DNA from: Bacillota bacterium
GTDB taxonomy: Bacteria > Bacillota > Thermincolia > Thermincolales > UBA2595
Assembly: GCA_021847735.1 (NCBI GenBank)
Contig: JAJZQD010000001.1
Coordinates: 1-64,000, forward strand
Direction: 5' to 3'
Length of the DNA: 64,000 bases
The translations under genes and the position numbers were made by a program. Position 1 is the stretch's first letter; the number at the start of each line of letters is the position of its first letter. Shown here piece after piece: positions 15,644 to 38,281 of this stretch. Under the pieces are notes generated by a model, which had not been told where the DNA came from, searched no databases, and was given only the letters and a program-made list of their open reading frames with translations.

Positions 15644-17140
15644 TTAGTTATTTATTTGGTTTTTTGCTGCCAATCTTTGGAGTAAATTAGCATCCGCTCT
15701 GATAAAATCCATAGCCATGGGACGCCAGTTATGTTCACTGAGGCAGCCACTAATTACACCGGCCTGGTAAAAAGCGTTTTCCAGGAAATGATAGAAACAG
15801 AAGCGGGCAACTCGCATAGCGGGCTTTTTCAGTTTATAATCAACTATCCCGGGTAGGGCGTGTAGTCCAAACAGTAACAAGGCTAACCCGGGGGACACGA
15901 AAAGGGCAAGAAAGGTAAGAATGCCGGAATAGTAGTGGGAATAATGCTGGCCGTAAATGTAAAAAGCCGCGCCCTGGGACCTGGCTGTGGCAAGAAAGAC
16001 CTGCCGGAATTTTGGTTTACACTCCCCGGCCTTGATACCGTGGAGTTTACTTAAAGACTGCCATACCAGGTTAGCTAATACCAAGGCCACACAGGCTGCC
16101 AGGCCCGCACCGGCACCGGCTGTCAGAGATATCAGGGCTGTTATTCCAAAAACAGCATGATTCCCGGGAAAAAAAACCAGCCTCCGTTTCTCTGTGGGAT
16201 ATCTAACCTGCAGCTTGGCCTCAGATTGTCCGTAATTGTATCTTCTTTTTAAAAACGGGGACAATGTTGAGCGATGGTGATGAAAAACCAATCCCTCAGG
16301 CACATAGTAAATATGCTCACCTTTCTCAAGTATCTGCCAGCACAGGTCAACATCTTCCCCCACCCTCATCAAGGGGTCAAAGGCGCCGGCGGCCAGCACA
16401 GACCTTTTCCTGACCAGCAAATTACAGGTTGGCAGGTAAGACACAGAACTTCCTTTGCGGACTTTGCGCAGGGTGTTCCCCATCAACAGGGGCGACTGCA
16501 CCTGTTCGTACTTTTCCAGCGGTCTTATTAAACCGGCTGACTCTACCCGCCCCCCGGCAGCCGCCACATCAGTGTACTGAAAACATGGCGCCAGACTTCT
16601 TAACCAGTTTTTTTCTGCCAGGCAGTCATCATCCAAAAAAGCGATAATCTCTCCCTTAGCCTGCCTCACTGCTTCGTTTCTGGCCGCTCCGGGGCCGCCG
16701 TTACGGGCTAGCCGGATTAATCTGACCGACCGGCTGTAACGCCCCAAATCCACGGGGACCGGTGATGCATCATCAACTACGATTATCTCGTATTTTTCTC
16801 TGGGATAATCCAGCGCGATCAGGGACTCAATACACTTATCCAACATTTGCGGACGGTTGTAAGTGGGTATTATAATACTGACCCACGGTAGCCGATCATC
16901 GGAAAGCGTTGGAAAAGACCTTGTCAAAATACCCTGGTCCTCCAAGCCGGCAGCAAATGCCGCCAGCTTTTCGTCCCAGGTGAATTTAGTGTCACCCGGT
17001 CCACACAGTAGTTGAATGGCTTTGGCCCCGGCCCTGCTCAACCTGATAATTCTATACGGGTATCGAACAGTTAACGTCCCACCCCCATTTCCCAAGCTTT
17101 CCCGGAAGGTAACACCATCTGCAAGCAAATACATGCTCAT
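15644..17140 (-). CDS. mftF: Mycofactocin glycosyltransferase MftF
   Basis: The 498-residue protein has an N-terminal region of about 100 residues before a GT2 domain: SIIIPTYNRPQMLDKC near 108, VDDASPVPVD, FLDDDCLAEKNWL (the DDD metal site) and VGEDVDLCWQI. Two to three hydrophobic segments follow between residues 325 and 440, indicating membrane attachment. MftF adds glucose units to mycofactocin in mycobacteria, and the N-terminal extension before the GT2 domain is typical. It overlaps the ETF beta stop by 4 bp, so translation is coupled. Confidence 0.88.
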   Translation of the reverse strand: MSMYLLADGVTFRESLGNGGGTLTVRYPYRIIRLSRAGAKAIQLLCGPGDTKFTWDEKLAAFAAGLEDQGILTRSFPTLSDDRLPWVSIIIPTYNRPQMLDKCIESLIALDYPREKYEIIVVDDASPVPVDLGRYSRSVRLIRLARNGGPGAARNEAVRQAKGEIIAFLDDDCLAEKNWLRSLAPCFQYTDVAAAGGRVESAGLIRPLEKYEQVQSPLLMGNTLRKVRKGSSVSYLPTCNLLVRKRSVLAAGAFDPLMRVGEDVDLCWQILEKGEHIYYVPEGLVFHHHRSTLSPFLKRRYNYGQSEAKLQVRYPTEKRRLVFFPGNHAVFGITALISLTAGAGAGLAACVALVLANLVWQSLSKLHGIKAGECKPKFRQVFLATARSQGAAFYIYGQHYSHYYSGILTFLALFVSPGLALLLFGLHALPGIVDYKLKKPAMRVARFCFYHFLENAFYQAGVISGCLSEHNWRPMAMDFIRADANLLQRLAAKNQINN

Positions 17141-22613: not shown

Positions 22614-24546
22614 CCATATACCCCTGCTTAACTGCAGGCCCTATTCCTGCAGGTGCCAAACAGTCGCCTACCCGGTAAATTTCTTTGACCCGGTCTTTTA
22701 AGGACAGGTACAGACCTTCATCAGGCTTAGGCCAGGCGTTGAAGACAAACAACTCAATGCCGGTCAGGGTTAGGGGTTTGCCGCTAAACTTGTTTTCGAT
22801 TAATGCTTGATCCCCGTCAATTTCCCTCAACACAGAAATGGTGAAAATCTCTGCCGGTCCTGACATCAATCGCTGGTTCCATGAGGATAGTTCCATAGTG
22901 TCGGCCAGTTTACTCCCGGCAAACCAATCCGGGGTAACCAGATATATTTTGTTACCGGCTGAAAGCAGCTTTTCCACGGCCCTGGCCATCAGCCGATCAC
23001 CAATTACATCCCAGAAAAGAACTTTTTTGTCACTGTCAACCGGATTGCTTATAACCTTTTTGGCTGACATTTTCTTGCATCCCTTCACGGGGATACCGGA
23101 GTCCATGGTTTTTGCACCCGTTGCCACTACCAGGGTGTCAGGTTGTATAGCCAGTATGTCCTCGGTTTTGCCGCGCTTCCCGGTAACTACCTTGACCCCG
23201 CAGACTGCCAGTTCCCGTTTCCATCCCTCCAGCACTCTTGATACTTCGCCGATGGAAGCACTGGCAGACATTGCCCCGCCTAAATCGGACTGGGACTCCC
23301 ACAGGGTAACCCGATGACCGCGAATAGCCGCAGTCTTTGCAGTTTCAATTCCCGCCGGACCGCCGCCTATTACCAGCACATCTTTGGGTGCAGCAATGCG
23401 GTTTGCCTTATGTTTCTCTTCCCTTGCCTCCACTCCCACCATCGGGTTGATAATACATGAAAGGGGTTTTCCCATACTGCGGCGAACCTGGCAGCCCTGG
23501 TTACAGGCCAAACATTCCCTAATCCTGCTGTCCTCGTTACGCGCCAGTTTTACCGGAAGTTCCGGGTCACATATCAGCGCCCGGTTCATATAAACCCCGT
23601 CTACCTGTCCTTCGTTGATAATCCTAGCCGCATATTCCGGGCGGTGAATCCGCCCTTCGGCAAACACCGGGAGTTTCACGGCCTGTCTTACCTTAGCGGC
23701 AACATCCACTGCCAGGCCCGGTTCGCTGTAATAGGTGGCCCAGGAAAGATGCAGTGAAAAAAGGCTGCCCATCGCCAGGGTGATATAGTCAAGGACATTC
23801 AACTTTTCCAGTTCCTGAGCGATTACCACGGCATCCTCCGGAGTAAGACCGCCCCAGGGCGCATATTCATCTCCGCAGAGCCTGATTCCCACCAGTTTGT
23901 CTTTGCCCAGCACCTTTCTGACTGCCTGCAGTATTTCCTTACAAAAACGCAGGCGGTTTGTCAGGTCCCCACCGTAAAGGTCCCCGCGTTGGTTTGTCAG
24001 AGGTGACATGAATTGCCTGACCAGAGAGAATTGGGCCGCATTTATTTCAATCCCGTCCAACCCTCCTCCAGCTGTATGAACAGCCGCTTTGGCATACCCG
24101 TCAACTATTTCCCGGATATCATTTTCCTCCATCGCCTTTGGCACTTCCCGGGATACAACATCAGGGACAGCACTGGATGCCCACAGCTCCCGCATAGAGG
24201 TACTGCCCTCGGACTGCATTCCGCTATGGTTAAGCTGCGCAACCACCACTGTCCCATACTTGTGAACACCCTGGCTGACCAGGCGATATCCGGGTATTGC
24301 GGCACTGATATATCCAAACGGTGCTTTCTCATATGGCAAGTCAGACGGGTGAACAAGCTGTTCTTCCAAAACGATCATCCCGACCCCGCCTTTGGCCCTT
24401 TCGCGATAATATGCTGCATGCTGTTCGGTAAGTACATTCTCCCTGGCAAAATTAGTTGGATGAGCGCCAAAAACTATCCGGTTCCGCAATTCGAAAGCCC
24501 CGACAGTTATATGGGATAAGAGTTGTTTATATTGAGATTTTGTCAT
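22597..24546 (-). CDS. FadH/OYE family NADH:flavin oxidoreductase, mycofactocin-type (first copy)
   Basis: The 649-residue protein has the same TIM barrel, iron-sulfur and FAD/NAD layout as its neighbour. Cluster residues are in CLACNQGCQVRR near 346 and a Cys in LSCIINP; the dinucleotide site is VLVIGGGPAGIETAKTA near 393. The two paralogues are clearly diverged, so both have been kept for different uses. It overlaps the mftC stop by 20 bp, indicating coupled translation. Confidence 0.88.
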   Translation of the reverse strand: MTKSQYKQLLSHITVGAFELRNRIVFGAHPTNFARENVLTEQHAAYYRERAKGGVGMIVLEEQLVHPSDLPYEKAPFGYISAAIPGYRLVSQGVHKYGTVVVAQLNHSGMQSEGSTSMRELWASSAVPDVVSREVPKAMEENDIREIVDGYAKAAVHTAGGGLDGIEINAAQFSLVRQFMSPLTNQRGDLYGGDLTNRLRFCKEILQAVRKVLGKDKLVGIRLCGDEYAPWGGLTPEDAVVIAQELEKLNVLDYITLAMGSLFSLHLSWATYYSEPGLAVDVAAKVRQAVKLPVFAEGRIHRPEYAARIINEGQVDGVYMNRALICDPELPVKLARNEDSRIRECLACNQGCQVRRSMGKPLSCIINPMVGVEAREEKHKANRIAAPKDVLVIGGGPAGIETAKTAAIRGHRVTLWESQSDLGGAMSASASIGEVSRVLEGWKRELAVCGVKVVTGKRGKTEDILAIQPDTLVVATGAKTMDSGIPVKGCKKMSAKKVISNPVDSDKKVLFWDVIGDRLMARAVEKLLSAGNKIYLVTPDWFAGSKLADTMELSSWNQRLMSGPAEIFTISVLREIDGDQALIENKFSGKPLTLTGIELFVFNAWPKPDEGLYLSLKDRVKEIYRVGDCLAPAGIGPAVKQGYMVGKSI

Positions 24547-25546
24547 TAACTTCCCCCCTTACACATTCAGGATCGGGCATATTCCAGTTTCCGTAAACCA
24601 GATATGATGCGCCCCGACACCCGCCGCGACATTTGCTGTAGCTGTGACATCCCACACAGGCTCTGGGTTCCTCAGTCCGCATCCGGCTAAATAATTCAGC
24701 CTCCACCCAAAGCTCTGACAAGGGTTTCGTTTTGACATTGCCGATAACCGTGGCGGGGTCCATCATAAAAGGGCAGGGGTAGACAAAACCTTGCGGGTCG
24801 ACTGAACAGGTCAGTTTGCCGGCTCCGCAGAAACTTAATCCAGGCAGTAGCTCTCCCAAAGAAGAGAGAAAAAAGAAGGAATCCCCGGTATTAACCTCTG
24901 GGTGCCGCATTAACCACTGGTATAACCGGACGTACTGTTCACGGGAGGGAACCAATTCCCACCATTGGTTGAGAGCCCGCCCGGCCGGCCTCAACCTTGA
25001 AAGTCTTAGTTTCGCCCCATATGAAACTGCCAGCTGAAGCATTGCATCAAGTCCGGCTATTGATGCTCCGGTAACCACACAGTTAATTGCTACAGTTACA
25101 TTTTTCTCCCGGAGCAAGCGAATCGCTGCTACCGCTTTTTGAAAAGTTCCCACTCCCCGAATGGGGTTATTGACCGACGGCTGCCAGCCATCCAGACTAA
25201 CCTGAACCCGCAGTCCTCTCTTGGTAATCTCTGCCGCAACAGTACTATTGATAAGAGTTCCATTAGTACTGAACTGGACATACACGTCTTTGTGCACCGC
25301 GTAGTCCATAATCTCAAAAAAGTTTTGGTGGAGAAGGGGTTCACCCCCTCCTATATTGATATAAAAAACCTTCATTTTAGCCAGGTCATCCAGGAAATTC
25401 CTTATCTGGCTCATATCAAGCTCTTCTCTGCAATCATCGGTACTGTCGGCCAGACAGTGCACACATCGTAAATTACATTTGCCGGTTATCTGCCAGGTCA
25501 GGCAAATCGGGGCCCGCAGCCTGGTTGTTTGAAGGCTCCAATTCAT
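24527..25546 (-). CDS. mftC: Mycofactocin radical SAM maturase MftC
   Basis: The 339-residue protein has the radical SAM motif CNLRCVHC (C24, C28, C31), the GGGEPLLH SAM-binding motif near 76 and a SPASM-type C-terminal cysteine-rich domain with CSVDPQGFVYPCPF and CVGCHSYSKCRGGCRG. MftC decarboxylates the C-terminal tyrosine of MftA and then forms a Val-Tyr cross-link. Identification is supported by mftB directly upstream (74-bp overlap) and the mftA precursor 1.1 kb upstream. Confidence 0.95.
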   Translation of the reverse strand: MNWSLQTTRLRAPICLTWQITGKCNLRCVHCLADSTDDCREELDMSQIRNFLDDLAKMKVFYINIGGGEPLLHQNFFEIMDYAVHKDVYVQFSTNGTLINSTVAAEITKRGLRVQVSLDGWQPSVNNPIRGVGTFQKAVAAIRLLREKNVTVAINCVVTGASIAGLDAMLQLAVSYGAKLRLSRLRPAGRALNQWWELVPSREQYVRLYQWLMRHPEVNTGDSFFFLSSLGELLPGLSFCGAGKLTCSVDPQGFVYPCPFMMDPATVIGNVKTKPLSELWVEAELFSRMRTEEPRACVGCHSYSKCRGGCRGASYLVYGNWNMPDPECVRGEVNDKISI

Positions 25547-25850
25547 GAACTAAATTCAACTCCTCAAGAAGGTACAGGATTTTTAACACAAATTCCTCCG
25601 CATCGCGCCCACGCAAGGAAGCTTGACTGATTTTTGCCGCTATTTCCCGCACTGTTCCTCTTTCGGCCAGTTCCAGGAGATTAATAACCAGTTGGGAGTT
25701 AAAAAAATGCAGACTGTCATCCACGCGCCGGTAAATCACCCCACCGGATTGTTCATAACGGTATTTTATTCCCGGTTGTACCGTGTAACGGCTGTCCAAG
25801 TTCAAAGCCTTATCCCCATTTCTGTCAATTCTTTTTAGGTGGCTGACCAT
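25473..25850 (-). CDS. mftB: Mycofactocin precursor chaperone MftB (PqqD-like)
   Basis: The 125-residue protein has the winged-helix PqqD-type peptide-recognition layout: YTVQPGIKYRYEQSGGVIYR near residue 22, then FFNSQLVINLLELAERGTV and an EEFVLKILYLLEELNLV C-terminal helix. MftB binds the MftA leader and delivers it to MftC. The predicted C-terminus overlaps mftC by 74 bp in another frame, an unusually long overlap; the mftC start could lie later, but its N-terminal residues look native. It also overlaps the SDR stop by 16 bp. Confidence 0.9.
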   Translation of the reverse strand: MVSHLKRIDRNGDKALNLDSRYTVQPGIKYRYEQSGGVIYRRVDDSLHFFNSQLVINLLELAERGTVREIAAKISQASLRGRDAEEFVLKILYLLEELNLVHELEPSNNQAAGPDLPDLADNRQM

Positions 25851-26638
25851 CCGCTGTCTACCATTAAATTGTGGCCGGTGACATATTGGGAATCATCGGA
25901 TGCCAGCCACAAAGCAGCTGCAGCGGTAGCTTCCGGCGGGATAATTTTACTGATCAGATGCCCGGAACTGAGTTCATCGGCAGCTTCTGCATGGTCTACG
26001 CCCATGATTTCCGCCAGCCCCCCTACCATCCCGGTGTCACAGGTACCCGGGCCAATGCAGTTAACCCTGATTTTATAGGGCGCCAGTTCCTGAGCCAGTG
26101 TTTTGGTCAGCGCAATGACACCCCATTTGGCGCAGCTGTAATGAACGGCAAAAGGCAACCCTTTTACACCGGCCACAGAGGCGTAACTGATGATATTTCC
26201 GCTCTGCCTGCCGATCATATGCGGGAGAACGGCTTTACATCCCAGCCAGACTCCCTTTAGGTTAATATCCAGCATGACATCCCACTCTTCTTCCGGGAGT
26301 TCATGAGCGGCGCCAAGTCCGGCGATACCGGCATCATTAACCATTATATCAATCTTGCCCAGAGCGCCGATAGTCTCATCAACAGCAGTCTTGATTTCCG
26401 CATAATTACGCACATCACCGTAAAAAGCCAGGGCCTTCCTGCCCAGAGCTGTTATTTCCGCTAAAGTTTTTTCCATATCTTCCTTAGTCGACAGATCATA
26501 AAGAACCCCATCCAGGTTATGACAGATGTCCAAGCATGCTATATCCGCACCTTCCCTGGCCATCGCCAGGGCCGCGGCCCGTCCTTGGCCCCTGGCCGCC
26601 CCGGTTATAAAGGCCACTTTTCCGTCAAGCTTTCCCAT
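25835..26638 (-). CDS. Mycofactocin-type SDR family oxidoreductase
   Basis: The 267-residue protein is a short-chain dehydrogenase with the cofactor motif TGAARGQG at 12-19, NDAGIAG near 101, and catalytic S154, Y167 and K171 (YSCAK). Between the first strand-helix unit and the D-V motif it has a DICHNLDGVLYDLSTKEDM insert near 37-55, the kind of insertion used to recognise SDRs with non-exchangeable NAD that depend on mycofactocin. Its place directly after mftA supports that. It should oxidise an alcohol with mycofactocin re-oxidising the bound NADH. Confidence 0.88.
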   Translation of the reverse strand: MGKLDGKVAFITGAARGQGRAAALAMAREGADIACLDICHNLDGVLYDLSTKEDMEKTLAEITALGRKALAFYGDVRNYAEIKTAVDETIGALGKIDIMVNDAGIAGLGAAHELPEEEWDVMLDINLKGVWLGCKAVLPHMIGRQSGNIISYASVAGVKGLPFAVHYSCAKWGVIALTKTLAQELAPYKIRVNCIGPGTCDTGMVGGLAEIMGVDHAEAADELSSGHLISKIIPPEATAAAALWLASDDSQYVTGHNLMVDSGWSAT

Positions 26639-26657: not shown

Positions 26658-26768
26658 TTAATAAACGCCGCAGATCCCGTCAATAGCCAGGGTTTCAATT
26701 ACTACATCCTCCAGTATCATTGGTTCATCAAAACTGATTTCATGCTCCGTATTAATTTGCTGTTCCAT
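26658..26768 (-). CDS. mftA: Mycofactocin precursor peptide MftA
   Basis: A 36-residue frame from ATG 26768 to TAA ends in IDGICGVY, the diagnostic C-terminus of mycofactocin precursors. The last Val-Tyr is the part that MftC decarboxylates and cross-links. The leader is acidic (SFDEPMILEDVVIE). It is too short for ordinary gene finders. The start lies inside the 3' end of larE, with a 17-bp overlap, and an AGAGG site about 7 bases upstream that is within larE. The SDR gene begins 19 bp after the stop. Confidence 0.96.
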   Translation of the reverse strand: MEQQINTEHEISFDEPMILEDVVIETLAIDGICGVY

Positions 26769-27603
26769 ATTTATAACCTCTTTCATCATTGTTTTTTGTT
26801 TCCAGGCGCAGCATCTCATTGGCACTGCCCATACGGTATCCGGCCAAGTCCAGCGTTACATAAGTGAATCCGATACTTTTCATATAGGCTACCACTTTTT
26901 CCGCAAGTTCGATAATTCTGGGCATACTGTCCCTATCCACCTCAATCCGCAAGACGTTTTCATGATACCTGGCACGAACCTGCGGAAAGCTGAGGGTTTT
27001 CAGATATTTCTCGGCTTTTTCCACCTTTGTCAAACCTTCAATGGTGATTCTTGTACCGTACTGGAAACGGGAAGAAAGGCAGGGAGATGAAGGTTTGTCC
27101 CATGTAGGCAGGCCCAGTTGTCTGGATTTCATACGAATATCTTCTTTTGTCAGACCGGCCTCCAGCAGTGGGCTGCGCACTTTCAGAGCCTGTCCGGCTT
27201 CCATACCGGGCCTGTAGTCGCCAGCGTCATCAGCATTGCATCCATCCACTAAGTAAGGGATGTTTCTCTCCCTGGCTACCTGCCAGAGCTTGCCAAACAG
27301 CTCACTTTTACAGTGGAAACACCGGTTTTTGGAATTACTGACAAACTCGTCCTTGTGAAACTCCTCCGTATTCACGGTAAGAAACGGGACCCCCATATCT
27401 TCGGCCATTCGGGTGGCCTCAACTATTTGATCGCAGGGTACGGTTTCAGAAATGCCCATTACACCAATCGCTTTTGGTCCAAGGACATCCCAGGCCACTT
27501 TTAGGAGAAAAGTACTATCGACACCTCCCGAATAAGCTACCACGACATTCCCCATCTCGTGCAGGATTTCCCTTAATCGGGCATATTTTGAAACGAGTTC
27601 CAT
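26752..27603 (-). CDS. larE: ATP-dependent sacrificial sulfur transferase LarE
   Basis: The 283-residue protein has the PP-loop SGGVDS at 25-30 and C175 in PSSPCLSSR, the position of the sacrificial cysteine whose sulfur is given to the nickel-pincer precursor. RCFHCKSELF near 94-103 adds two further cysteines. LarE turns the two carboxylates of the LarB product into thiocarboxylates. Its end overlaps mftA by 17 bp, so the two genes are translationally tied. larB is 13 kb downstream in the same gene run. Confidence 0.95.
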   Translation of the reverse strand: MELVSKYARLREILHEMGNVVVAYSGGVDSTFLLKVAWDVLGPKAIGVMGISETVPCDQIVEATRMAEDMGVPFLTVNTEEFHKDEFVSNSKNRCFHCKSELFGKLWQVARERNIPYLVDGCNADDAGDYRPGMEAGQALKVRSPLLEAGLTKEDIRMKSRQLGLPTWDKPSSPCLSSRFQYGTRITIEGLTKVEKAEKYLKTLSFPQVRARYHENVLRIEVDRDSMPRIIELAEKVVAYMKSIGFTYVTLDLAGYRMGSANEMLRLETKNNDERGYKYGTAN

Positions 27604-28353: not shown

Positions 28354-29364
28354 CTAGTCTTCCCCCTTACCGGCGTTTGCCACTTTGGACACCAGGTAAT
28401 CCGCGATTTTACTGATTTCCCGCGCTACCAGGGAATCAGGGTGGTTTATGACCACCGGAATACCCGCATCTGAACTTTCATTTACTTCAACCATGAACGG
28501 AATACTGCCAAGGAAATCCACTTCCATCATTTTAGCCAGGCGTTCAGCAGACCGCTGGCCAAATAGTTTGATGGGCTTTTCACAGTGCGGGCAGCAAAGA
28601 ATACTCATATTCTCCAGTACGCCAAGTATTGGAATGTTCATCTCCTTGGCGGTGTTGATGGCCTTGGTGCAAACAATGGTGGAAACGTCCTGGGGAGTGC
28701 TGACTACTATCATCCCGTCTAAGCCCGGGATGGAACTCATGACGGTGAGGACCTCATCCCCGGTCCCGGGCGGCAGGTCAACCAGCAGGTAATCCAATTC
28801 ACCCCAGTTTATCGTGCTTAAGAACTGCCGGATTATTCTCATCTTGAAAGGGCCCCGCCACATAACCGGGCTCTCCCGGCTGGGCCAAATCGAGTCAACG
28901 GAAACCATGTCGACACCATATGGTGTTCTTATCGGTTCGAAACGTAAATTATGGGTGTCCCCGCCGAACTGCTCTTCCTGATGTCCATGGCCGTGATGGT
29001 GATCGTGGTCGTGATGGTGATCATGGCCGCAGCAGTTGTCGTCATGATGATGGTGCCCCTCATGATTCGCTTGACTATTATGTCCCCCAGGCATTCGGTG
29101 AGAGGCCACATCCAGCTTTCCGGCAGCGCCCAGTATTTTGGGCACTGCCGGCCCGTGCACATCGGCATCGAGAATAGCGACTTTACACCCTTGTTGGGCT
29201 AAAGTCACTGCCAAATTGACAGTGGCAGTGGTTTTACCCACTCCGCCTTTTCCGCTGAATACAGCAATTTTGTGCTTCACCCGGCTCAATGACTGGGCAA
29301 TAGGACTGTGCTGAGCCTGCCATTGTTCCCGGGCCTGCTGTTTTAAGTCATAAAAACTATCCAT
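28354..29364 (-). CDS. Mrp/NBP35 family P-loop ATPase with a histidine-rich insert
   Basis: The 336-residue protein is a Mrp/ApbC-type iron-sulfur carrier. It has the deviant Walker A GKGGVGKTT at 38-46, DADVHGPAVPKILG near 72, LLVDLPPGTGDE near 194 and CCPHC in the C-terminal third. Between residues 92 and 130 a His/Asp-rich insert replaces the usual loop; it has about 20 histidines and two adjacent cysteines. Such inserts bind nickel or other divalent ions in other metallochaperones. It may load iron-sulfur clusters into the DUF362 proteins or store nickel for the lar pathway. Confidence 0.9.
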   Translation of the reverse strand: MDSFYDLKQQAREQWQAQHSPIAQSLSRVKHKIAVFSGKGGVGKTTATVNLAVTLAQQGCKVAILDADVHGPAVPKILGAAGKLDVASHRMPGGHNSQANHEGHHHHDDNCCGHDHHHDHDHHHGHGHQEEQFGGDTHNLRFEPIRTPYGVDMVSVDSIWPSRESPVMWRGPFKMRIIRQFLSTINWGELDYLLVDLPPGTGDEVLTVMSSIPGLDGMIVVSTPQDVSTIVCTKAINTAKEMNIPILGVLENMSILCCPHCEKPIKLFGQRSAERLAKMMEVDFLGSIPFMVEVNESSDAGIPVVINHPDSLVAREISKIADYLVSKVANAGKGED

Positions 29365-29369: not shown

Positions 29370-30509
29370 TTAGCCCCCTATCATTTCCAGGTGATATTTG
29401 CGCAACCCCAACCCAAAGTCTTCGGCATACTGTAAAGGATATGAGGTGTCAACCCCGTGGATTTCTTCAAATTTCAGGCTGTCGGGCGCCAGAGTGCTAT
29501 ATCCCTGTGACTTTTGGAATACCAGTCCGGGGGCTTTATTAATCAGGTCTAAGGAAGCCTGATCAATCGCCACAGGATCACGAGAAGCCAGGATACCCAG
29601 ATCAGGGGTGATGCTCTGGTCGTTTACCGTGTAGTAATCTGGATACTTGCCCACATCCAGAAGGAAGTTCAGGTAGAACAGTTTTCCCATGGTAGCGACG
29701 TTCACCGCTGTAGCGGCTTCCACAACCCGTTTCTGGAATCTGGGATAAGACTCTTTATTAACCTTCAGAGCGCCCTGGGCACAAAAACCGAGGCAATAAT
29801 GATTACATCCTTTGCAACGGCCATGATCTACTTTTACCACTCCATTATTGGCAGTGATAGCCTGGGTCGGGCATAGCGCTACACAATCCTCGCAATTAGT
29901 GCACCTGGCTGTGTCAACTACCGGTTTCAGCGGGTCAAATATCCGCCATTTCCCTTTTTGCGAGGAGCAACCGACACCTTTGTTAAACAGAGCGCCGTTT
30001 AAACCGAAAAACGGGTGGCCGGTAACATGGGAAACGACAACCATAGCGGCAACCTCAACAACACCCCTGGCAACTTCGATACCGCCCAGCTCGTCACCGT
30101 CAATCGGCAGCAGTTCATCTTCCGCGCCTGTATACCCGTCCGCCGGAAGAATGTCTTTACCCAGTAATGCACCGGGATAACCGTTGACAGAAGTTGTATA
30201 AAACCAGTCACTGGGCCCCCTCAGGGTGTTGCCAATCATGCCCACAGTGTCCATAATAACAGGGATACCCTTCAGCTCCGTTATCTTTTCCACGATGGCC
30301 CTTACCATGACAGGGCGTAAATATCTGATATTACCAAGCTCACCGATATTTATTTTGACGCCCACATAGTCGCCGGGTTTAAAAAGGTCTTTAAGACCGC
30401 TGATATCCAGGAGTCCATCAAGGGCTCTGACCATTCCGCCGCTCATACAGTAGCTCCCCGAGTCCACTCCCCAAACTATACTGCTGTTGGATTCCGGCAA
30501 AAGTACCAC
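29370..30509 (-). CDS. DUF362 iron-sulfur protein
   Basis: The 379-residue protein has a DUF362 domain in the first 190 residues and at its end, split by a two-cluster ferredoxin module: CTNCEDCVALCPTQAI near 196 and CKGCNHYCLGFCAQGAL near 226. Function of DUF362 proteins is not established; they are common in anaerobes near redox operons. It has a paralogue 1.1 kb upstream. It ends 5 bp before the Mrp-type ATPase gene, which could insert its clusters. Confidence 0.85.
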   Translation of the reverse strand: MVLLPESNSSIVWGVDSGSYCMSGGMVRALDGLLDISGLKDLFKPGDYVGVKINIGELGNIRYLRPVMVRAIVEKITELKGIPVIMDTVGMIGNTLRGPSDWFYTTSVNGYPGALLGKDILPADGYTGAEDELLPIDGDELGGIEVARGVVEVAAMVVVSHVTGHPFFGLNGALFNKGVGCSSQKGKWRIFDPLKPVVDTARCTNCEDCVALCPTQAITANNGVVKVDHGRCKGCNHYCLGFCAQGALKVNKESYPRFQKRVVEAATAVNVATMGKLFYLNFLLDVGKYPDYYTVNDQSITPDLGILASRDPVAIDQASLDLINKAPGLVFQKSQGYSTLAPDSLKFEEIHGVDTSYPLQYAEDFGLGLRKYHLEMIGG

Positions 30510-30565: not shown

Positions 30566-30835
30566 TTAAGCAGTCGTAGGGTCAATTATTGTTACGACCT
30601 TTGAAACACTGTTAGCCGGAAAACCCCCTCGTTTTGCGTGTTCACGAACCATTTCTTCGTTGGGAGCGATATAGATACAGTAAATCTTGTCACTGGTAAC
30701 ATAACTTTGCACCCACTGGATTTGCGGCCCAAGCTGGTTTAGGATTCCACAGGACTTCTGTGAAATACCCTGCAGGTCTTGGGGAGTCAGATTTCCAGCA
30801 CCGGGAATTTCTCGTTCAATTACGTATTTTGGCAT
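30566..30835 (-). CDS. DUF4242 (SCO4226-type nickel-binding) protein
   Basis: The 89-residue protein matches DUF4242: PKYVIEREIPGAGNLTPQDL at the start, then WVQSYVTSDKIYCIYIAPNE and EHAKRGGFPANSV. The characterised member, SCO4226 of Streptomyces, is a nickel-binding ferredoxin-like-fold protein. That family link, together with lar genes on both sides, suggests a nickel-handling role; metal binding here is inferred. It lies between the two DUF362 genes. Confidence 0.85.
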   Translation of the reverse strand: MPKYVIEREIPGAGNLTPQDLQGISQKSCGILNQLGPQIQWVQSYVTSDKIYCIYIAPNEEMVREHAKRGGFPANSVSKVVTIIDPTTA

Positions 30836-30880: not shown

Positions 30881-30907
30881 GGACGCTCCCCGCTGACGGG
30901 GAGCGTC
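30881..30907. other. Strong intergenic hairpin between DUF362 and DUF4242 genes
   Basis: GACGCTCCCCG and CGGGGAGCGTC form an 11-bp perfect stem with a CTGA/TCAG loop. No T-run follows on the minus strand, so it looks like an mRNA processing or stability element. Confidence 0.55.
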
Positions 30908-30938
30908 AAATCCCTATACAACGTGACAAGAAACAATC

Positions 30939-32300
30939 TTACTTTTTCCCCAGGTCTGGACCGTAATCTTTGTAAATGTCGATATTAAACGGCTTCCGAT
31001 TATATGGTTGAATCTCCTTGACATAATCGTGCTTCTTCCAGATTTCACGCAACAGAAGCGCAGTCGGCTCCTGGCGAATCTGCCACTTGGCGATATGCTC
31101 CCTGGTCATAGGAGGCTCGTAGGTGATTAATTCGTAATCCATTGTTCCCATTCCAAGTTTTACGCCGGCATTCAATTGATACCTGGGCGGTACGCTCTGG
31201 GTAACTTTGAACTTGTCATCACCCGGCTTAACTCCGGCGTCTTCCAGCATGTTGTTGGCTGCGCCCGGGGGAATTGGGGCGGCATCGATTTTATCTAATA
31301 TTGCTGTGTCCATTGCCACGATGTCCTTGGATGCAAACACTCCGATGTCAGGGCTTACAGGAAGGGTTGCCCACGGGATGCAGTCACAGTTCGGGTCAGT
31401 ATCAATTGCATAGGCCATGTGGCCTACTTTGCCTTCCCCAAAGGTCTTCAACACAGCCTTGGCTGCATCAGACATACCAATCTGGGCATATGCGAAATAC
31501 TCCGGCCGGAATCCCTGAGATGTGTGTCCGGTAAAAATACAGGTTACCTGGCAGCCATAGCACAACTGGCATTTATCGGTATTCCTGCGGAACCCTTTCT
31601 CATCAATTGTGATAGCCCCGGCATGGCAACCATCCATGCACTGCTCGTGGAACTCACATTTTAAACCGGCACAGGCGCTGGGATCGCTTAAAGGCCAGCC
31701 GATAGCATCGCCGGGCTCGCCCCAGTGAGCCAAGTGCTCAACAAATTTTCCACGCTTGGATTGTCCCCCGATACCAATGTTCTTAATGGCCCCGCCGTAG
31801 CTGGTGATGGGATGCCCTTTAGCGTGTGCCAGGTTAATCATGGCATCAGCCATGGCAATCCCAGAAGCAACATAAGCCTCTTTCAAGACAATACCTTCCG
31901 GTAAGTCTACCCTTACATCATCGCAACCCGACCAACCGTCGGCTATTACCAGCGGGCAACCGAGTGCATCAGGCGTAAAGCCGTGCCGGTAAGCGGTTTC
32001 TAACTCCAGGGTGGCAGTGATCCTGGAGTTGAAAGCGTGATAGGGTAAGGTGGTGGTGTCAGTCACAAACGGGCGGCCGCCCACAGCTTTAACTTCTTCC
32101 ACGATAGCGGCCACCAATTCAGGTCTCAGGCACCTAGTCCGGTTATATTCGCCTACGTGAATCTTCACTGCTACCGAGTCACCTTTTGCTATACACTTGT
32201 CAAGCCCCGCTTCGTAGAATAGATCCTTTGCCTTACAGACCAGACTTTCTGTCCAGTTAGTGGCATTTGCATCAGAAAACCAAACCTTAGATTTTGCCAT
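30939..32300 (-). CDS. DUF362 iron-sulfur protein, first gene of the sigma-54 operon
   Basis: The protein (about 453 residues) has DUF362 regions flanking a cysteine-rich segment: CAGLKCEFHEQCMDGCHAGA near 210 and CQLCYGCQVTCIFTG near 245. It has KIHVGEYNRTRCLRPELV near 45-62, matching its paralogue at 29370. I choose ATG 32300 over the upstream GTG because AGGAGGG stands seven bases before it. It is the first gene after the sigma-54 promoter, so it is probably tied to the main function of the operon. Its biochemical role is unknown. Confidence 0.85.
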   Translation of the reverse strand: MAKSKVWFSDANATNWTESLVCKAKDLFYEAGLDKCIAKGDSVAVKIHVGEYNRTRCLRPELVAAIVEEVKAVGGRPFVTDTTTLPYHAFNSRITATLELETAYRHGFTPDALGCPLVIADGWSGCDDVRVDLPEGIVLKEAYVASGIAMADAMINLAHAKGHPITSYGGAIKNIGIGGQSKRGKFVEHLAHWGEPGDAIGWPLSDPSACAGLKCEFHEQCMDGCHAGAITIDEKGFRRNTDKCQLCYGCQVTCIFTGHTSQGFRPEYFAYAQIGMSDAAKAVLKTFGEGKVGHMAYAIDTDPNCDCIPWATLPVSPDIGVFASKDIVAMDTAILDKIDAAPIPPGAANNMLEDAGVKPGDDKFKVTQSVPPRYQLNAGVKLGMGTMDYELITYEPPMTREHIAKWQIRQEPTALLLREIWKKHDYVKEIQPYNRKPFNIDIYKDYGPDLGKK

Positions 32301-32424: not shown

Positions 32425-32441
32425 TGCAATTATCATGCCAG
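32425..32441 (-). promoter_or_regulatory. Sigma-54 promoter of the mycofactocin operon
   Basis: On the minus strand CTGGCATGATAATTGCA fits the sigma-54 consensus TGGCACG-N4-TTGCA with one change. The GG and GC pairs are exactly 12 bp apart. It lies about 125 bp before the start of the first operon gene and 100-150 bp downstream of a pair of palindromes. A sigma-54 activator gene is directly upstream. Confidence 0.88.
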
Positions 32442-32483
32442 GGTTAAAACAAATGCCCTGATTAAAGGAAAACCGTTAAAATA

Positions 32484-32517
32484 CAAAAAAAAAAGCATAT
32501 GCTGAAGCATATGCTTT
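32484..32517 (-). terminator. Terminator of the larC / kinase / activator operon
   Basis: AAAGCATATGC and GCATATGCTTT form an 11-bp stem with a four-base loop, followed on the minus strand by about ten T. It stands 70 bp after the activator stop codon and isolates the next operon. Confidence 0.9.
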
Positions 32518-32537
32518 AGATGCAACCGTTGTTTTTC

Positions 32538-32573
32538 TGTCCTAACAGGACATTAAGTTGTTCCTGTGGGACA
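32538..32573. promoter_or_regulatory. Paired palindromic activator sites (upstream activating sequence)
   Basis: TGTCCTAACAGGACA (32538-32552) and TGTTCCTGTGGGACA (32559-32573) share the consensus TGTYCY-N3-RGGACA. Their centres are 21 bp apart, two helical turns, and they lie about 130-155 bp upstream of the expected sigma-54 start site. This is the usual arrangement for binding NtrC-type activator dimers, here most likely the response regulator encoded next to them. Confidence 0.75.
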
Positions 32574-32585
32574 ATACTTTGTCCG

Positions 32586-34055
32586 CTACTTGCCCAGGTA
32601 TATATATTTCAAAGTCCTGGGCGAGATGCCCAGTAAATTAGCAGCAGCTTTCCTGTCCCCCAGTGTTTCGGCCAGGGCTTTCTTGACCAGGCTTTTAGCC
32701 ACCGAATTTCTTAAATTATTTATATTATCCAAGACGCCGGTTAAATCCAAGGTTTTTCTCTCCCGCAGCCGGTGTTCCAATCTCTCCACCAGCAGGTTGG
32801 CATCCCTGCCAAGCACATCAAACATTTCCCCCCCGGTTTCATCGATTCTGTCGCCGCCACCACCGGCGGCCCTGGTTTTAAGGCGGCAGGTTAATAACTT
32901 TTCCGGCAGGTGGCGTGGCTTGATAACAGGCTCGTCTACCACCGCTACCAGTCGTTGAATAAGGTTACCCAGTTCCCGGACATTACCGGGCCAATTATAT
33001 TCACACAATATCTCAACTGTTTCCGCAGCTAACTTTTGCACTCCACCGTCCTTCCCCTCGGCAAACCGTCTTAGATAGTAATCCAGGAAACATGGTATGT
33101 CTTCTTTACGTTCACGCAGGGGAGGTATTTTCATAGTCAAGACGTCCAACCGATAAAACAGGTCCTGGCGAAAAATTCTGTTATCAACGGCTTCATCCAA
33201 AATTACGTTAGTAGCCGCAATGATTCTGGAATCAGTTTTCAGGCTGGTTTCCCCGCCAACCCGCATAAATTCCCCTGACTCCAAAACTCGCAAAAGCTTG
33301 GCCTGGGTAGACAGGGATGCTTCACTGATTTCATCAAGAAACAGGGAGCCATTGCTGGCTATTTCAAAATAACCTTTCCTTGTTTTATTGGCGCCTGTAA
33401 AAGCACCCTTTTCATAACCGAAAAGTTCACTTTCCAGCAAGGTTTCGGAAATAGCAGCACAGTTAATCGGAACAAAGGGTTTTTCTGCCCTTTTACTGAA
33501 ATTATGTATCAACCTGGCAATAACTTCTTTTCCTGTCCCCGTTTCCCCCTGAATCAGGACCGTTACGTTTTTGACCGCAATCCTCCGGGCCAGGTCAACG
33601 ACCTGTAACATTTGCTCGTTTTTTCCGAACACCAGACCGGATTCCTCCACCATTTCCTGCAGGTTTATGTTCTGGTCATGGGAAACCGTGTTTAGGGCAC
33701 TGTCGATCAGCCTTTCTAACTCATTCAAGTCATCAAAAGGTTTTTCAATATAATCAAGTGCCCCTATCTGCATCGCAGCGATAGCCGATTTTACGGTGCT
33801 GTACCCGGTCATAATGATTACCTGGCAACCGTAGGCCTTGGACTTAATCTGTTTTAACAGCGTTAGTCCTTCAATATCCGGAAGTTTCAGGTCTAACAAT
33901 GCAAGATGAAACTTTTCTCTCTCAATTGTCTCTTGGGCTTCCCGTCCAGATTGAATAGCGGTAACCTCATATCCCTTGTTTCTTAAAAGGTAGGAGAAGA
34001 AGGTGCAAATTTCTTTCTCGTCATCCACAACCAGTATCCTTTGCAGTTGGCCCAC
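32586..34055 (-). CDS. Sigma-54-dependent response regulator, NtrC family
   Basis: The 489-residue protein has a receiver domain (LLDLKLPDIEGLTLLKQI, phosphoacceptor Asp near 54), an AAA+ domain with GETGTGKEVIARLIH and the sigma-54 contact motif GAFTGA in ELFGYEKGAFTGANK, and a C-terminal Fis-type helix-turn-helix (DRKAAANLLGISPRTLKYI). A longer than usual linker precedes the helix-turn-helix. It follows the kinase gene by 17 bp. It should bind the two palindromes just beyond its own stop codon and switch on the operon at 32.3 kb. Confidence 0.95.
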   Translation of the reverse strand: MGQLQRILVVDDEKEICTFFSYLLRNKGYEVTAIQSGREAQETIEREKFHLALLDLKLPDIEGLTLLKQIKSKAYGCQVIIMTGYSTVKSAIAAMQIGALDYIEKPFDDLNELERLIDSALNTVSHDQNINLQEMVEESGLVFGKNEQMLQVVDLARRIAVKNVTVLIQGETGTGKEVIARLIHNFSKRAEKPFVPINCAAISETLLESELFGYEKGAFTGANKTRKGYFEIASNGSLFLDEISEASLSTQAKLLRVLESGEFMRVGGETSLKTDSRIIAATNVILDEAVDNRIFRQDLFYRLDVLTMKIPPLRERKEDIPCFLDYYLRRFAEGKDGGVQKLAAETVEILCEYNWPGNVRELGNLIQRLVAVVDEPVIKPRHLPEKLLTCRLKTRAAGGGGDRIDETGGEMFDVLGRDANLLVERLEHRLRERKTLDLTGVLDNINNLRNSVAKSLVKKALAETLGDRKAAANLLGISPRTLKYIYLGK

Positions 34056-34072: not shown

Positions 34073-35716
34073 TCAGTTGCTTGACGGCAATAACACCGTG
34101 AACTTACTCCCCATGCCGGGTGTACTCTCACACTCTATGTTTCCCCCGTGATTCTGAATAATCCCCATACTCACTGCCAAGCCCAATCCTGTTCCCTTAC
34201 CAACGTCTTTGGTAGTATAAAAAGGGGTAAATATTTCGGATAACTGTTCTTTTTGCATACCGCAGCCATTATCTTCAATAGAGATAGACAGGTGGTCTTT
34301 TCCACTTCTTGTACACCGGCCGCTGGAAATAAAAATCATTCTGTTGTCTTCCCTGCTATCCAAAGCGTCTTTGGCATTAATGAGAAGATTGACGATGACC
34401 TGTTCTAACTGCTGGCTGCTGCCGAAAATCTCAGGTAACTCCGGTTCCAGTTCGCATTTTATTTCCATCCGGTCTTGGCGAATTTGGTGACCGACTAAAC
34501 CAATCGCCCTGTTAACTACCTCATTGATTGAAACTATCTCACCGTCCAATTGCTGTTTTCTGGCAAAAGACAGTAAATTTTGAACAATGGTCTTGCACCT
34601 CACCCCACATTGATTAATATCTTCCATCAATACATAACTCTCATTTTCCCGGGGCAGCTCCCTCATTAAAAGTTGGGCGTTGCCCAGTATCGCTGTCAAT
34701 GGGCTGTTAAGCTCATGAGCAACTCCTGCAGCCAGCTTGCCGATAGCGGCCAGTTTTTCTGACTGGATTAACTGTGACTCTACAGCCATCTGCTGGGTAA
34801 CATCCTTAAATGTCTCAACAACCCCCTTTATCCGGTCGTTGCTCCTAAACATCGGATATGTGTAAACATCGTAAACGTTTTTATCAAACCTTTCAACAAA
34901 CTCGTAGGACCTTGCAGCGGAAGACGCTCTCTCCTCAAACATATGGCACCGTTTACAAGGTTCTGTTCTTTGGTAGATTACTTCATAACACTTTTTCCCT
35001 TTGTGAGCACCCAACTGAAAAATCTTTCTGGCTGCTTCATTGTACCTGATTATTTCAAATTTGGTATTAATTATTACGATGGCGTCAGTGATTGCCAGAA
35101 AGGTGTCTTCCCATTCCCGTTCCCTTGAACTGATTTCAGAAAAAAGTTTCATATTGTTTAAACCTACGGAAAAGTGGGCAGCCAGCTGGTTCAGAAATGC
35201 CACATCCTGCAAAGAGTAAGCATTTTTTTTCATGCTCTTGACAGCAAGAATGCCGATCACAGTGTTTTTTACCATCAGAGGAACAAAAACCGCGGAGCCC
35301 CAATGTTTATCATTGCTTACTGTCAATCCGAAATCTTGGGTTTCATCAGGGAGGATCAGACTTTTTTTGTTACTGATTATAAAGCGGCAAATCTTGTTGG
35401 GATTACATGAGGTCCGGCAACATCCCGGCTCGGAATCACCCATAAAACACTTGCATTCACCATCAACAAAGGTAGATAAATTAAAATCGTCAACAGGCAG
35501 AACGGTGGTCAATTTTCCAACCAAGCAGCTGATTATCCGTTCAATAGGTAAATCCACGGTGAAAGACTTGGCAACCCGGTTGATGATTTCCAATTGCTTG
35601 TTCCGCAGTGTAACTTCTTCAATTTTTTGCTGTAATTCAACATAATAGTTTTTCTTGGAGGATCCTATACCCGTTAGCGTCTCTAATATTTTCAGTTTTT
35701 CCGCTTCCATGGCCAA
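34073..35716 (-). CDS. Sensor histidine kinase with GAF and PAS domains
   Basis: The 547-residue protein has an N-terminal coiled region, a GAF domain (about 45-200) with several cysteines (CKCFMGDSEPGCCRTSC) that might hold a metal or act as a redox switch, a PAS domain (about 210-310) with a CKRC pair, the H-box GVAHELNSPLTAILGNAQLL near 335, and HATPase motifs DNGCGM and GTGLGLAVS. It has no membrane segments, so it senses a cytoplasmic signal, possibly redox state or a substrate. It pairs with the response regulator gene 17 bp downstream. Confidence 0.93.
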   Translation of the reverse strand: MAMEAEKLKILETLTGIGSSKKNYYVELQQKIEEVTLRNKQLEIINRVAKSFTVDLPIERIISCLVGKLTTVLPVDDFNLSTFVDGECKCFMGDSEPGCCRTSCNPNKICRFIISNKKSLILPDETQDFGLTVSNDKHWGSAVFVPLMVKNTVIGILAVKSMKKNAYSLQDVAFLNQLAAHFSVGLNNMKLFSEISSREREWEDTFLAITDAIVIINTKFEIIRYNEAARKIFQLGAHKGKKCYEVIYQRTEPCKRCHMFEERASSAARSYEFVERFDKNVYDVYTYPMFRSNDRIKGVVETFKDVTQQMAVESQLIQSEKLAAIGKLAAGVAHELNSPLTAILGNAQLLMRELPRENESYVLMEDINQCGVRCKTIVQNLLSFARKQQLDGEIVSINEVVNRAIGLVGHQIRQDRMEIKCELEPELPEIFGSSQQLEQVIVNLLINAKDALDSREDNRMIFISSGRCTRSGKDHLSISIEDNGCGMQKEQLSEIFTPFYTTKDVGKGTGLGLAVSMGIIQNHGGNIECESTPGMGSKFTVLLPSSN

Positions 35717-35732: not shown

Positions 35733-36890
35733 TTACAGGACTGCCGTAAAAAGCTTTAATATGTCGTCAACTTGGACTTCCTTAGGGTTTGTTATGATAC
35801 AAACATCTACCATGGCGTTTTCACTCAATTTGATTAAAAGTTCATCGGTAAGCCCCACTTCTGGCAGCTTTTCAAGTATTCCTATATCTTTTGCCAGCCT
35901 GCGGACAGCCTCTATAGCCTTTTGAGCCGCATCTCTCCGGCTCAGACCGAATACTCTCTGGTCCATAGCTTCGGCAATGGAACCAAATCTCTCAATAGCA
36001 GATGACAGGTTATACTCCATTACAGAAGGCAGCAATATAGCGTTGGCTTCACCGTGAGGCATGTCCAGGAGTCCTCCTAATTGGTGACTCATGGCGTGCA
36101 CCAGTCCCAGTATGGCATTGGAAAGGGCTAGTCCTGCCTGTAAACTGGCCATGGCCATAGCGTCTTTAGCTTCTAAATTGGTGCGGTTAGATACGGAAAC
36201 CGGTAAATACCTTGTAGCAAGCTTAATGGCGTTCAAAGCCTGTATATCTGTTAACGGCGTTGCCGCCAGGGAAACATAAGCTTCAATGGCATGGGTTAAG
36301 GCATCCATACCGGTATTCGCGGTCAATTGTTTGTCCTTAGTGGTAAGTGTCCTGGGATCTATCAATGAAATATCAGGTACTAAAGATTTCGAACCGATAA
36401 CCATTTTCATTTGTCTTTTGGTATTGGTAACCACAGCAAGCTGGGTGACTTCAGCCCCTGAGCCTGCCGTTGTGGGAACAGCCACTATAGGCGGCAGCGC
36501 TTGCTGGACTTTATCCGCTCCCTCGAAGTCACTAATATGCCCACCGTTTGTGCTGAGCAGGGCAATAGCTTTAGCAGTGTCAATAGAACTGCCACCGCCT
36601 ATCCCGAGGACAGCGTTACAGCCTGTTTCAAGATATTTCTCCAGCCCCTTATGAACTTCATGGTCTTTGGGGTTGCTGGTAATGTCGTGCCAGATGATGT
36701 AATCCAAGCCCGCTTCCTTAATAGGCGGTACTGCCTTGTCGACCCATCCGGCTTCCATGACCCCAGGGTCGCTAACTATGAAAACTTTCTTGACCCCCAG
36801 CCTAACTAGGCTTTCCCCCACTTGTTCAAGAGCTCCCCGCCCAAAAATAATTTCCGGGGAAACAAATTTGTACAATTCCATTTTTCTCAC
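35733..36890 (-). CDS. Iron-containing alcohol dehydrogenase
   Basis: The 385-residue protein is a group III alcohol dehydrogenase: GIGGGSSIDTAKAIALL near 97, PTTAGSGAEVTQLAVV near 138, and the metal ligands D and H in TGMDALTHAIEAYVS near 193-207 and H in LVHAMSHQLGG and MPHGEANAILLP near 265-282. It oxidises alcohols with NAD. Some members of this family use mycofactocin as electron acceptor, which would explain its place here. It overlaps larC by 4 bp, and the kinase gene follows 16 bp later. Confidence 0.93.
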   Translation of the reverse strand: MRKMELYKFVSPEIIFGRGALEQVGESLVRLGVKKVFIVSDPGVMEAGWVDKAVPPIKEAGLDYIIWHDITSNPKDHEVHKGLEKYLETGCNAVLGIGGGSSIDTAKAIALLSTNGGHISDFEGADKVQQALPPIVAVPTTAGSGAEVTQLAVVTNTKRQMKMVIGSKSLVPDISLIDPRTLTTKDKQLTANTGMDALTHAIEAYVSLAATPLTDIQALNAIKLATRYLPVSVSNRTNLEAKDAMAMASLQAGLALSNAILGLVHAMSHQLGGLLDMPHGEANAILLPSVMEYNLSSAIERFGSIAEAMDQRVFGLSRRDAAQKAIEAVRRLAKDIGILEKLPEVGLTDELLIKLSENAMVDVCIITNPKEVQVDDILKLFTAVL

Positions 36891-38281
36891 CTGCTTTTAT
36901 CCCGGATTCGCAATCCCTTGATCGCAGCATTATATACTTGTTTTAGCGGGACATTAAATTCTTTTGCTTTTTTCTTACAGTCCTCATATTCGGGAGCATG
37001 GTTTACCACTGTCCCGTCCAAAATCGCCTGTTTCACACGGATTTCACCGTATTCCGTTTCAACTGTTACAATTTCTCTATGTAAACACAATCTCTGATAC
37101 GTGCTTATCCTTAGCCCAATTGTCGATGTTTCGCGAAATAAAACGCCCGCAAGTTCTGTACAGTTTGGTTCCCTGCACAGGACCTTAATCATATTGGCAG
37201 GCCGGTTCTTTTTCATCTGGATGGGGATAAGAAACACGTCCAACGCACCCTTGCTAAACAACTCCTCAAACACATAGTCAAAGAACTCCGGATTCATATC
37301 GTCAATATTGGCTTCTAATTCCATTACCGTTTCATTATCACAATTGAGGACAGATGCATTGTCTGTTATTTCATGACCAAGTATCACGCGGAGCAGGTTG
37401 GGAACTGTAAATTCACGGGTTCCGGCCCCGTATCCCACCTTAATAACATTCAGCGTCGGCATCGGCCCGCATGTCTCGGCAAGAGTTGATAAAATTGCCG
37501 CCCCGGTAGGGGTGACTGTTTCACCATTATGTTCGGAACCAAAAGTGTGCATTCCGGTGAGTAATTCCATAGCTGCGGGGGCCGGCACCGGAATAGTGCC
37601 ATGTTGGCATTTAACAAATCCGTGGCCAAGCGGCAATGGGGATACCACAATTTTATCAATCTGCAACAGGTGTAAAGCGATAGCCGCCCCAACAATATCA
37701 ACAATTGCGTCAACCGCGCCTACTTCATGAAAGTGAATCTTCTCAGGAACGGTTCCGTGTATTTTCGCTTCAGCTGCGGCCAACCTGCGAAAAATCCGGA
37801 TGCTTTTCTCTTTCACAGAACCGGCAAGCTGGCTTTTTTCAATCATGCTAACAATATCATTAAGATTTCTTTGCTCGTGGCAGGACCCGTGAGCGTGACG
37901 GTGATGCTCTTCTCCGTGATGGTGATGGTCATGCCCGTGAGCGTGTTGGTCATTACTATGGCCGTGATGACTATGTCCTTGATCGCAGGTATTGTCGTGA
38001 TGAGCATGTGCATGGTCAAAAAGCTGTCCGTTGGTTTCATCTATGACGTCAAATTTTGTTGCGCTAAAACCCGACTTCGTTACTTTTCGCGCCTGTATCC
38101 GGTACCCTTTAAAGAGCAGTTTTGCCAGCTCTGCCTGCAAAGCCTCGATATCTAAACCTAAATCTATCAGCGCTCCCAAAATCATATCCCCACTGGCCCC
38201 AGCAAAACAATCAAAGAAAAGCACTTTGCGGGTATTAACCATACTGTCCCTCCTAAAACTTTGGCTTTTGCTACGAAACAT
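36887..38281 (-). CDS. larC: Nickel insertion protein LarC, full length with histidine-rich region
   Basis: The 464-residue protein matches LarC, which inserts nickel into the pincer nucleotide using CTP. The start has FFDCFAGASGDMILGALIDLG, the middle IHFHEVGAVDAIVDIVGAA, the C-terminal half ETVMELEANIDDMNPEFFDY. A region with about 25 histidines at residues 85-140 probably collects nickel. In some bacteria larC is split and needs a frameshift; here it is one open frame. The predicted start may be at MVNTRKVLFF (15 residues in). It is the first gene of the operon with the alcohol dehydrogenase and two-component genes. Confidence 0.94.
   Translation of the reverse strand: MFRSKSQSFRRDSMVNTRKVLFFDCFAGASGDMILGALIDLGLDIEALQAELAKLLFKGYRIQARKVTKSGFSATKFDVIDETNGQLFDHAHAHHDNTCDQGHSHHGHSNDQHAHGHDHHHHGEEHHRHAHGSCHEQRNLNDIVSMIEKSQLAGSVKEKSIRIFRRLAAAEAKIHGTVPEKIHFHEVGAVDAIVDIVGAAIALHLLQIDKIVVSPLPLGHGFVKCQHGTIPVPAPAAMELLTGMHTFGSEHNGETVTPTGAAILSTLAETCGPMPTLNVIKVGYGAGTREFTVPNLLRVILGHEITDNASVLNCDNETVMELEANIDDMNPEFFDYVFEELFSKGALDVFLIPIQMKKNRPANMIKVLCREPNCTELAGVLFRETSTIGLRISTYQRLCLHREIVTVETEYGEIRVKQAILDGTVVNHAPEYEDCKKKAKEFNVPLKQVYNAAIKGLRIRDKSR

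Follow-up and report, generated by a model that had tools for sequence, protein, structure and literature searches.

A putative sigma-54 promoter with a phased palindrome pair in front of a mycofactocin and probable nickel-pincer operon of a Bacillota bacterium

Little is known about the signals that prompt mycofactocin production outside the mycobacteria. The window analysed here, a stretch of 64,000 bp from a Bacillota bacterium, raises the question of whether a mycofactocin operon may be switched on by an alcohol-responsive two-component system acting through sigma-54, and it offers a testable circuit that runs from a candidate alcohol sensor through a kinase and an activator to a defined enhancer and promoter. 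Along the minus strand, genes for LarC (38281-36887), an ErcA-type alcohol dehydrogenase (ADH; 36890-35733), a histidine kinase (35716-34073) and an NtrC-type regulator (34055-32586) precede a DUF362 gene (DUF362a). This is followed by genes for an SCO4226-like nickel protein, a second DUF362 protein (DUF362b), an NBP35-type NTPase, two small proteins, LarE, MftA, an SDR, MftB and MftC, and further by those for two OYE-type flavoproteins, EtfA, a FixC-like protein, EtfB, MftF, an aldehyde:ferredoxin oxidoreductase (AOR), LarB and an MftE-like protein (Table 1). We consider it likely that the ErcA-kinase pair responds to an alcohol and phosphorylates the regulator, which would activate the mycofactocin/nickel-pincer operon via sigma-54.

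Table 1. Coordinates of the features discussed, given as positions in the window.
Feature	Position	Strand	Basis
LarC, nickel pincer cofactor biosynthesis, upstream of the ErcA-like gene	36887..38281	-	TIGR00299 and NF052512 over cut-off
ErcA-type iron ADH, TSNPKDHEVH loop, proposed sensor partner	35733..36890	-	NF041833 487.9 bits; NPKD class
Histidine kinase: N-terminal LTGIGSSKKNYYVEL motif, GAF, PAS, HisKA, HATPase	34073..35716	-	Pfam and motif comparison
NtrC-type response regulator, predicted activator	32586..34055	-	Pfam Response_reg, Sigma54_activat, HTH_8 over cut-off
Extra half-site GGACA directly 3' of regulator stop	32580..32584	-	sequence
Palindrome 1, TGTCC-CACAG-GAACA	32559..32573	-	sequence; L006 counterpart TGTCC-CTGCC-GGACA
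Palindrome 2, TGTCC-TGTTA-GGACA	32538..32552	-	sequence; L006 counterpart TGTCC-AAAGC-GGACA
Intrinsic terminator between palindromes and promoter, closing the sensor/regulator unit	32484..32517	-	-13.8 kcal/mol, z -5.75 (hairpin 32517-32492)
Putative sigma-54 -24/-12 promoter TGGCATGATAATTGCA (TGGCATG-ATAA-TTGCA)	32425..32440	-	consensus match; predicted +1 near 32414
DUF362a, first operon gene, ferredoxin-like insert, Pfam clan of LarA	30939..32300	-	Pfam; Foldseek best matches Mar2, LarA
SCO4226-like nickel-responsive small protein (coding part scanned)	30590..30835	-	PF14026 103.4 bits
DUF362b, second DUF362 protein, Fer4 domain	29370..30509	-	Pfam
NBP35/Mrp-type P-loop NTPase, His-rich	28354..29364	-	PF10609
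LarE	26752..27603	-	TIGR00268 325.8 bits, cut-off 150
MftA precursor, ends IDGICGVY	26658..26768	-	NF040489 variant MftA 41.5 bits, cut-off 30
Mycofactocin-coupled SDR dehydrogenase	25835..26638	-	TIGR03971 300.0 bits at cut-off 300
MftB-like chaperone	25473..25850	-	TIGR03967 23.7 bits, below cut-off 33
MftC radical SAM maturase	24527..25546	-	TIGR03962 371.6 bits, cut-off 265
MftF glycosyltransferase	15644..17140	-	TIGR03965 360.6 bits, cut-off 280
AOR; relatives beside many ErcA-kinase-regulator trios	13885..15621	-	Pfam AFOR_N, AFOR_C
LarB	12545..13417	-	NF033503 288 bits, cut-off 175
Creatininase-family protein, MftE-like	11788..12618	-	TIGR03964 109.8 bits, below cut-off 172

Sequence elements upstream of DUF362a

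The gap from the regulator stop codon (32588-32586) to the DUF362a ATG at 32300 comprises 285 bp. This ATG is preceded by GGAGG, an arrangement shared by a second locus described below (L006), and the GTG at 32321 given as the start by the ORF caller is probably wrong. Read on the minus strand, the gap contains the regulator stop, two palindromes, an intrinsic terminator, the sigma-54 site and the ATG of the first gene, with 125 bp between the last two. The original prediction had proposed a sigma-54 promoter at this place, insulated by a terminator, preceded by two palindromes exactly two helical turns apart and adjoined by a sigma-54 activator gene, and each of these elements was found.

The sigma-54 site TGGCATGATAATTGCA has GG at -24 and GC at -12 in the correct spacing and deviates from TGGCACG-N4-TTGCW at one position. 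Taken alone, this match is weak evidence and near chance: 0.4 sites with at most one mismatch are expected per 64 kb, and one was observed. A second sigma-54-like site with two mismatches, TGGCATAATTGTTGCA, lies at 11385 on the minus strand, downstream of the MftE-like gene; sites of this kind occur in about the number expected by chance.

The two palindromes lie exactly 21 bp apart, with their centres at about -152 and -131. Their sharper consensus is TGTCC-N5-GGACA, from which palindrome 1 deviates at one position. A scan of 399 phylum genomes for the tandem pair (at most one mismatch over the 20 fixed positions, 21-bp phase) found it in two, namely in the window with one mismatch and in the same gap of genome G132, on L006, with none; the reversed control gave no match among the genomes listed. 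The single palindrome showed no genome-wide enrichment (134 matches versus 220 for the reversed control). The phased pair significantly exceeds chance, whereas single palindromes do not. The tandem palindromes were not found at other ErcA-kinase-NtrC loci, where the sites differ and the HTH is mostly of another type, and only two loci with this putative enhancer are known.

The regulator combines a receiver, an AAA+ domain with GAFTGA and a C-terminal Fis-type HTH, and it is a complete activator of the NtrC family. From their conservation and position, the palindromes are a candidate upstream activator site for such a protein. Regulator dimers would bind to both palindromes on the same side of the helix, form an AAA+ ring, loop over about 100 bp and convert the closed complex of sigma-54 polymerase at 32440-32425 into the open one. 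Because the terminator between palindromes and promoter would halt read-through from the sensor genes, the operon would be off without a signal.

L006 is a contig of a Bacillota MAG (JAJZTU010000072.1), the same contig on which the match of G132 lies. It encodes the kinase, regulator, DUF362a, DUF362b, NBP35, the two small proteins, LarE, SDR, MftB, MftC and OYE in the same order as the window, with protein identities of 54-87%, and also carries MftA. Absence of the palindromes from related genomes that share this gene order had been named as refuting the original prediction; L006 retains them, likewise 21 bp apart, and in the alignment 19 of 20 bases of the arms match, while the spacers differ. 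The C-termini of the two regulators, which contain the HTH, are nearly identical and differ at few positions. A fifth half-site of L006 is located on the opposite side of its palindrome pair from the extra half-site of the window. The terminator is of unrelated sequence, occupies the same place and is stronger (-34.6 kcal/mol, z -7.97), and the sigma-54 site TGGCGAGATTATTGCT at 2460 has two mismatches to the consensus.

L069, a short contig of G132 distinct from L006, encodes LarC, an ErcA-like protein and the first part of a kinase at 67-77% identity, and it appears to fit upstream of L006, the two contigs not being joined. Conservation is thereby seen at two loci, and L006 may have been transferred or misbinned, given that the window and G132 belong to different classes of the phylum. 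A search for more operon orthologs with DUF362a in the family, the class and the 399 phylum genomes yielded G132 only, on the contig that is L006. Within the window's family, G006 possesses SDR-MftB-MftC-OYE on a contig that stops before the promoter region. This contig, L032 (G006:C15), is 6 kb long and partly masked, and its MftB/MftC reading frame appears to be fused. G132 also has a second, paralogous ErcA-kinase-NtrC trio (L068, G132:C169), which is without palindromes.

One may read the gap differently, with the palindromes binding another factor or serving only the 3' end of the sensor operon, sigma-70 driving the DUF362 and mft genes, and the sigma-54 match arising by chance. Such a reading can draw on the chance frequency given above, on weak sigma-70-like sites and on the failure to find rpoN in the genome of the window, which is 62% complete, but the sigma-54 site is correctly oriented in a short gap, an intact sigma-54 activator adjoins, L006 keeps the order of the elements, and rpoN is present in seven of nine genomes of the family as well as in G132. 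We regard it as very unlikely.

The candidate alcohol sensor

In the sigma-54 circuit that we favour, the ErcA-type ADH would dock on the soluble kinase encoded next to it, at the N-terminal segment of the kinase, and would signal either alcohol or the NAD/NADH state of the ADH itself; the kinase would in turn phosphorylate the NtrC-type regulator. The ADH of the window misses the NF041833 (ErcA) cut-off of 550 and is therefore labelled ErcA-type, not ErcA. It is directly followed by the kinase with its N-terminal segment, and LTGIGSSKKNYYVEL lies 58 bp after the ADH match.

An ErcA-type search was positive in 47 of the 399 phylum genomes. At many of the phylum loci fetched, the ADH gene has genes for a kinase and an NtrC-type regulator beside it, and in many cases a second iron-ADH and an AOR are encoded there as well; sigma-54 sites are found in front of the iron-ADH/AOR genes beside such trios in many members of the phylum. 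Of 39 ADHs with an NPKD/NPRD loop, 25 were immediately followed by a gene with the N-terminal kinase motif, LTG[VI]..SK..YY.EL, as opposed to none of the 21 iron-ADHs without such a loop (Fisher p 3e-7); the loci had been picked by ErcA similarity, and these 21 served as an internal control. A few more kinases have related N-terminal segments (IGLGE..RKSYYPEL). The motif, seen only beside ErcA-type ADHs, recurs across kinases with differing sensor domains and regulator types, including one from Chloroflexi that is paired with a NarL-type regulator (L009) and one on a Tsukamurella plasmid, encoded between an ErcA-like ADH and mftM and near mdo (L108). On this plasmid (NZ_LR134451.1), a single locus (L108 2965-10937) carries mdo, MoxR, VWA, the ErcA-like ADH, a MadS-family kinase, a NarL-type regulator and mftM. 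A plasmid search with the kinase gave generic kinases only.

It had originally been suggested that a cysteine-rich GAF/PAS kinase perhaps senses the alcohol or the redox state. The PAS cysteines C243, C254 and C257 are widespread among related kinases, but the relatives do not share the GAF cysteines of the window, and we rejected the cysteine-rich GAF domain as the sensor. A GAF cysteine redox sensor is therefore unlikely, and the idea is weak. Judged by gene order and the conserved N-terminal motif, the adjacent ErcA-type ADH appears to be the better candidate.

The kinase could nevertheless sense a redox, metal or ligand signal through its own GAF and PAS domains, in which case the sigma-54-activated operon would be real and the ErcA-like ADH just a co-regulated enzyme. 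The presence of both domains, the widespread PAS cysteines and the retention of the GGGS motif in the ErcA-like protein, which judged by its sequence looks catalytically intact, would agree with this; the lack of conservation of the GAF cysteines and the way in which the N-terminal motif tracks ErcA-type ADHs across different kinases and regulators make it, in our view, unlikely.

In 2011, the TSNPKDYEVH loop of iron-ADHs was read as a signature of mycofactocin dependence (PMC3023750). We found it to be the common loop of ErcA-type ADHs beside kinases (L068-L108, window 35733-36890), also without MftC. MftC was detected in three of the 399 phylum genomes, NPKD-type ADHs in many.

Content and extent of the operon

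The operon makes mycofactocin and probably also a nickel cofactor, and it could with equal right be called a nickel-pincer/DUF362 operon. MftA, MftC and MftF pass the curated cut-offs; the scores of MftB and MftE are below theirs, and these two seem to be of a divergent or variant type. MftD (TIGR03966) was not recognised among the window proteins scanned. LarB, LarC and LarE all score over their cut-offs, and no ordinary LarA was recognised among the genes scanned.

DUF362 belongs to the same Pfam clan as the LarA family (PMC11770544). The best PDB matches of the DUF362a model, which is of modest confidence (pLDDT 65), were malate and lactate racemases (Mar2, LarA) with a low TM of about 0.3, and Lar_N matched weakly in six of 12 DUF362a homologs (best E 6e-4); a PDB sequence search with DUF362 gave ferredoxin domains only. 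We hypothesise that DUF362 proteins may be nickel-pincer enzymes, and the locus, where they accompany LarB, LarC, LarE and an SCO4226-like nickel protein, points to them as candidates. L007 from Actinomycetota has genes for DUF362, LarE, LarC, an MftA-like peptide and an SDR, and a NarL-type regulator gene adjoins its ErcA-like gene.

According to the original prediction, the promoter controls the whole mycofactocin operon. This is upheld in so far as MftA, SDR, MftB, MftC and MftF lie downstream and no clear terminator was found in between, and it is weakened by a 430-bp gap 3' of DUF362a, which could hold another promoter. Sigma-70-like sites in this gap are weak and occur at chance level. 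Directly 3' of DUF362a (30510-30938) there is a GC-rich hairpin, GCTCCCCGTCAGCGGGGAGCG, without a T run, and a similar hairpin is found in L006 (3961-4110); it is possibly an element of mRNA processing or stability.

The same gap would suit an arrangement in which the sigma-54 promoter governs mainly the DUF362/nickel-pincer genes and the mycofactocin genes are neighbours with a promoter of their own. We assign this arrangement a small probability: DUF362a, DUF362b and NBP35 do stay grouped without nearby mycofactocin genes in L008, L009, L011 and L012, but from DUF362b to MftC nearly all genes of the window overlap or abut, and the mft genes of L006 follow in the same order. No good sigma-54 site was found upstream of DUF362a in L007, L008, L009 and L011; L012 has one with two mismatches. 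With one sigma-54 promoter for the whole operon, as we propose, transcription would run from DUF362a into the mycofactocin genes.

Comparison with known regulatory systems

The proposed circuit resembles YiaY/ErcA, PP_2683/ErcS and AgmR/ErbR of Pseudomonas, where an iron-ADH-like protein, a kinase and a regulator activate genes for alcohol oxidation and for a peptide-derived cofactor, PQQ (PMC12997753). YiaY, PP_2683 and AgmR are all required for full ped activation, and models predict a contact of YiaY with the N-terminus of the kinase PP_2683 (PMC12997753). Unlike this trio with its LuxR-type regulator, hybrid kinase and PQQ, the window has an NtrC-type regulator, sigma-54 and mycofactocin (PMC12997753).

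In Mycobacterium smegmatis, the two-component system MnoSR is encoded with a putative propanediol dehydrogenase, MSMEG_6239, and controls the alcohol dehydrogenase Mno, with a binding palindrome 137 bp upstream of the target (PMC11303327). The window shares the two-component system encoded with a dehydrogenase and the upstream palindrome, a likeness by gene order; whereas the target of MnoSR is the enzyme Mno, the cofactor genes themselves lie downstream in the window (PMC11303327). From gene order, the Tsukamurella locus may be the MnoSR counterpart, its regulator being NarL-type as opposed to the NtrC-type protein of the window.

MftR, a TetR family protein, controls the mycofactocin biosynthesis genes and responds to acyl-CoA (PMC8728441). 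The window's regulator, which would likewise control mycofactocin biosynthesis genes, is a predicted sigma-54 activator and not TetR-type, and no TetR-like gene was found among the operon and flanking genes scanned. The earlier statement that mycofactocin loci studied so far use TetR-type repressors holds for MftR (PMC8728441) and overlooks that the two-component system MnoSR already controls Mno (PMC11303327).

In the parts of the literature on AdhR and AorR of Clostridiales considered here, these are sigma-54 activators of ADH or AOR genes with several upstream sites, as proposed for the window, and AdhR, unlike the window's regulator, is an activator of the one-component type with GAF/PAS domains; the regulons described in those parts do not include mycofactocin (PMC6615313, PMC7017808). 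In the literature searched, we found no description of sigma-54 control of mycofactocin.

As a tentative joint reading, which we hold to be plausible though rather short of probable, docking of an iron-ADH on the N-terminal motif of a kinase could be a portable, cross-phylum alcohol sensor for the control of PQQ and mycofactocin. The TSNPKDYEVH loop would then mark sensor ADHs and not mycofactocin dependence, and the operon would combine two rare cofactors, mycofactocin and nickel-pincer, under one regulatory unit. This suggests that PQQ and mycofactocin control may share one sensor type, which the N-terminal motif allows to be found elsewhere. Two-component control of an ADH by MnoSR and TetR-type control of mft genes by MftR were known; what the window adds is a predicted two-component alcohol regulator of the ErcA type that acts through sigma-54 and fronts a mycofactocin operon.
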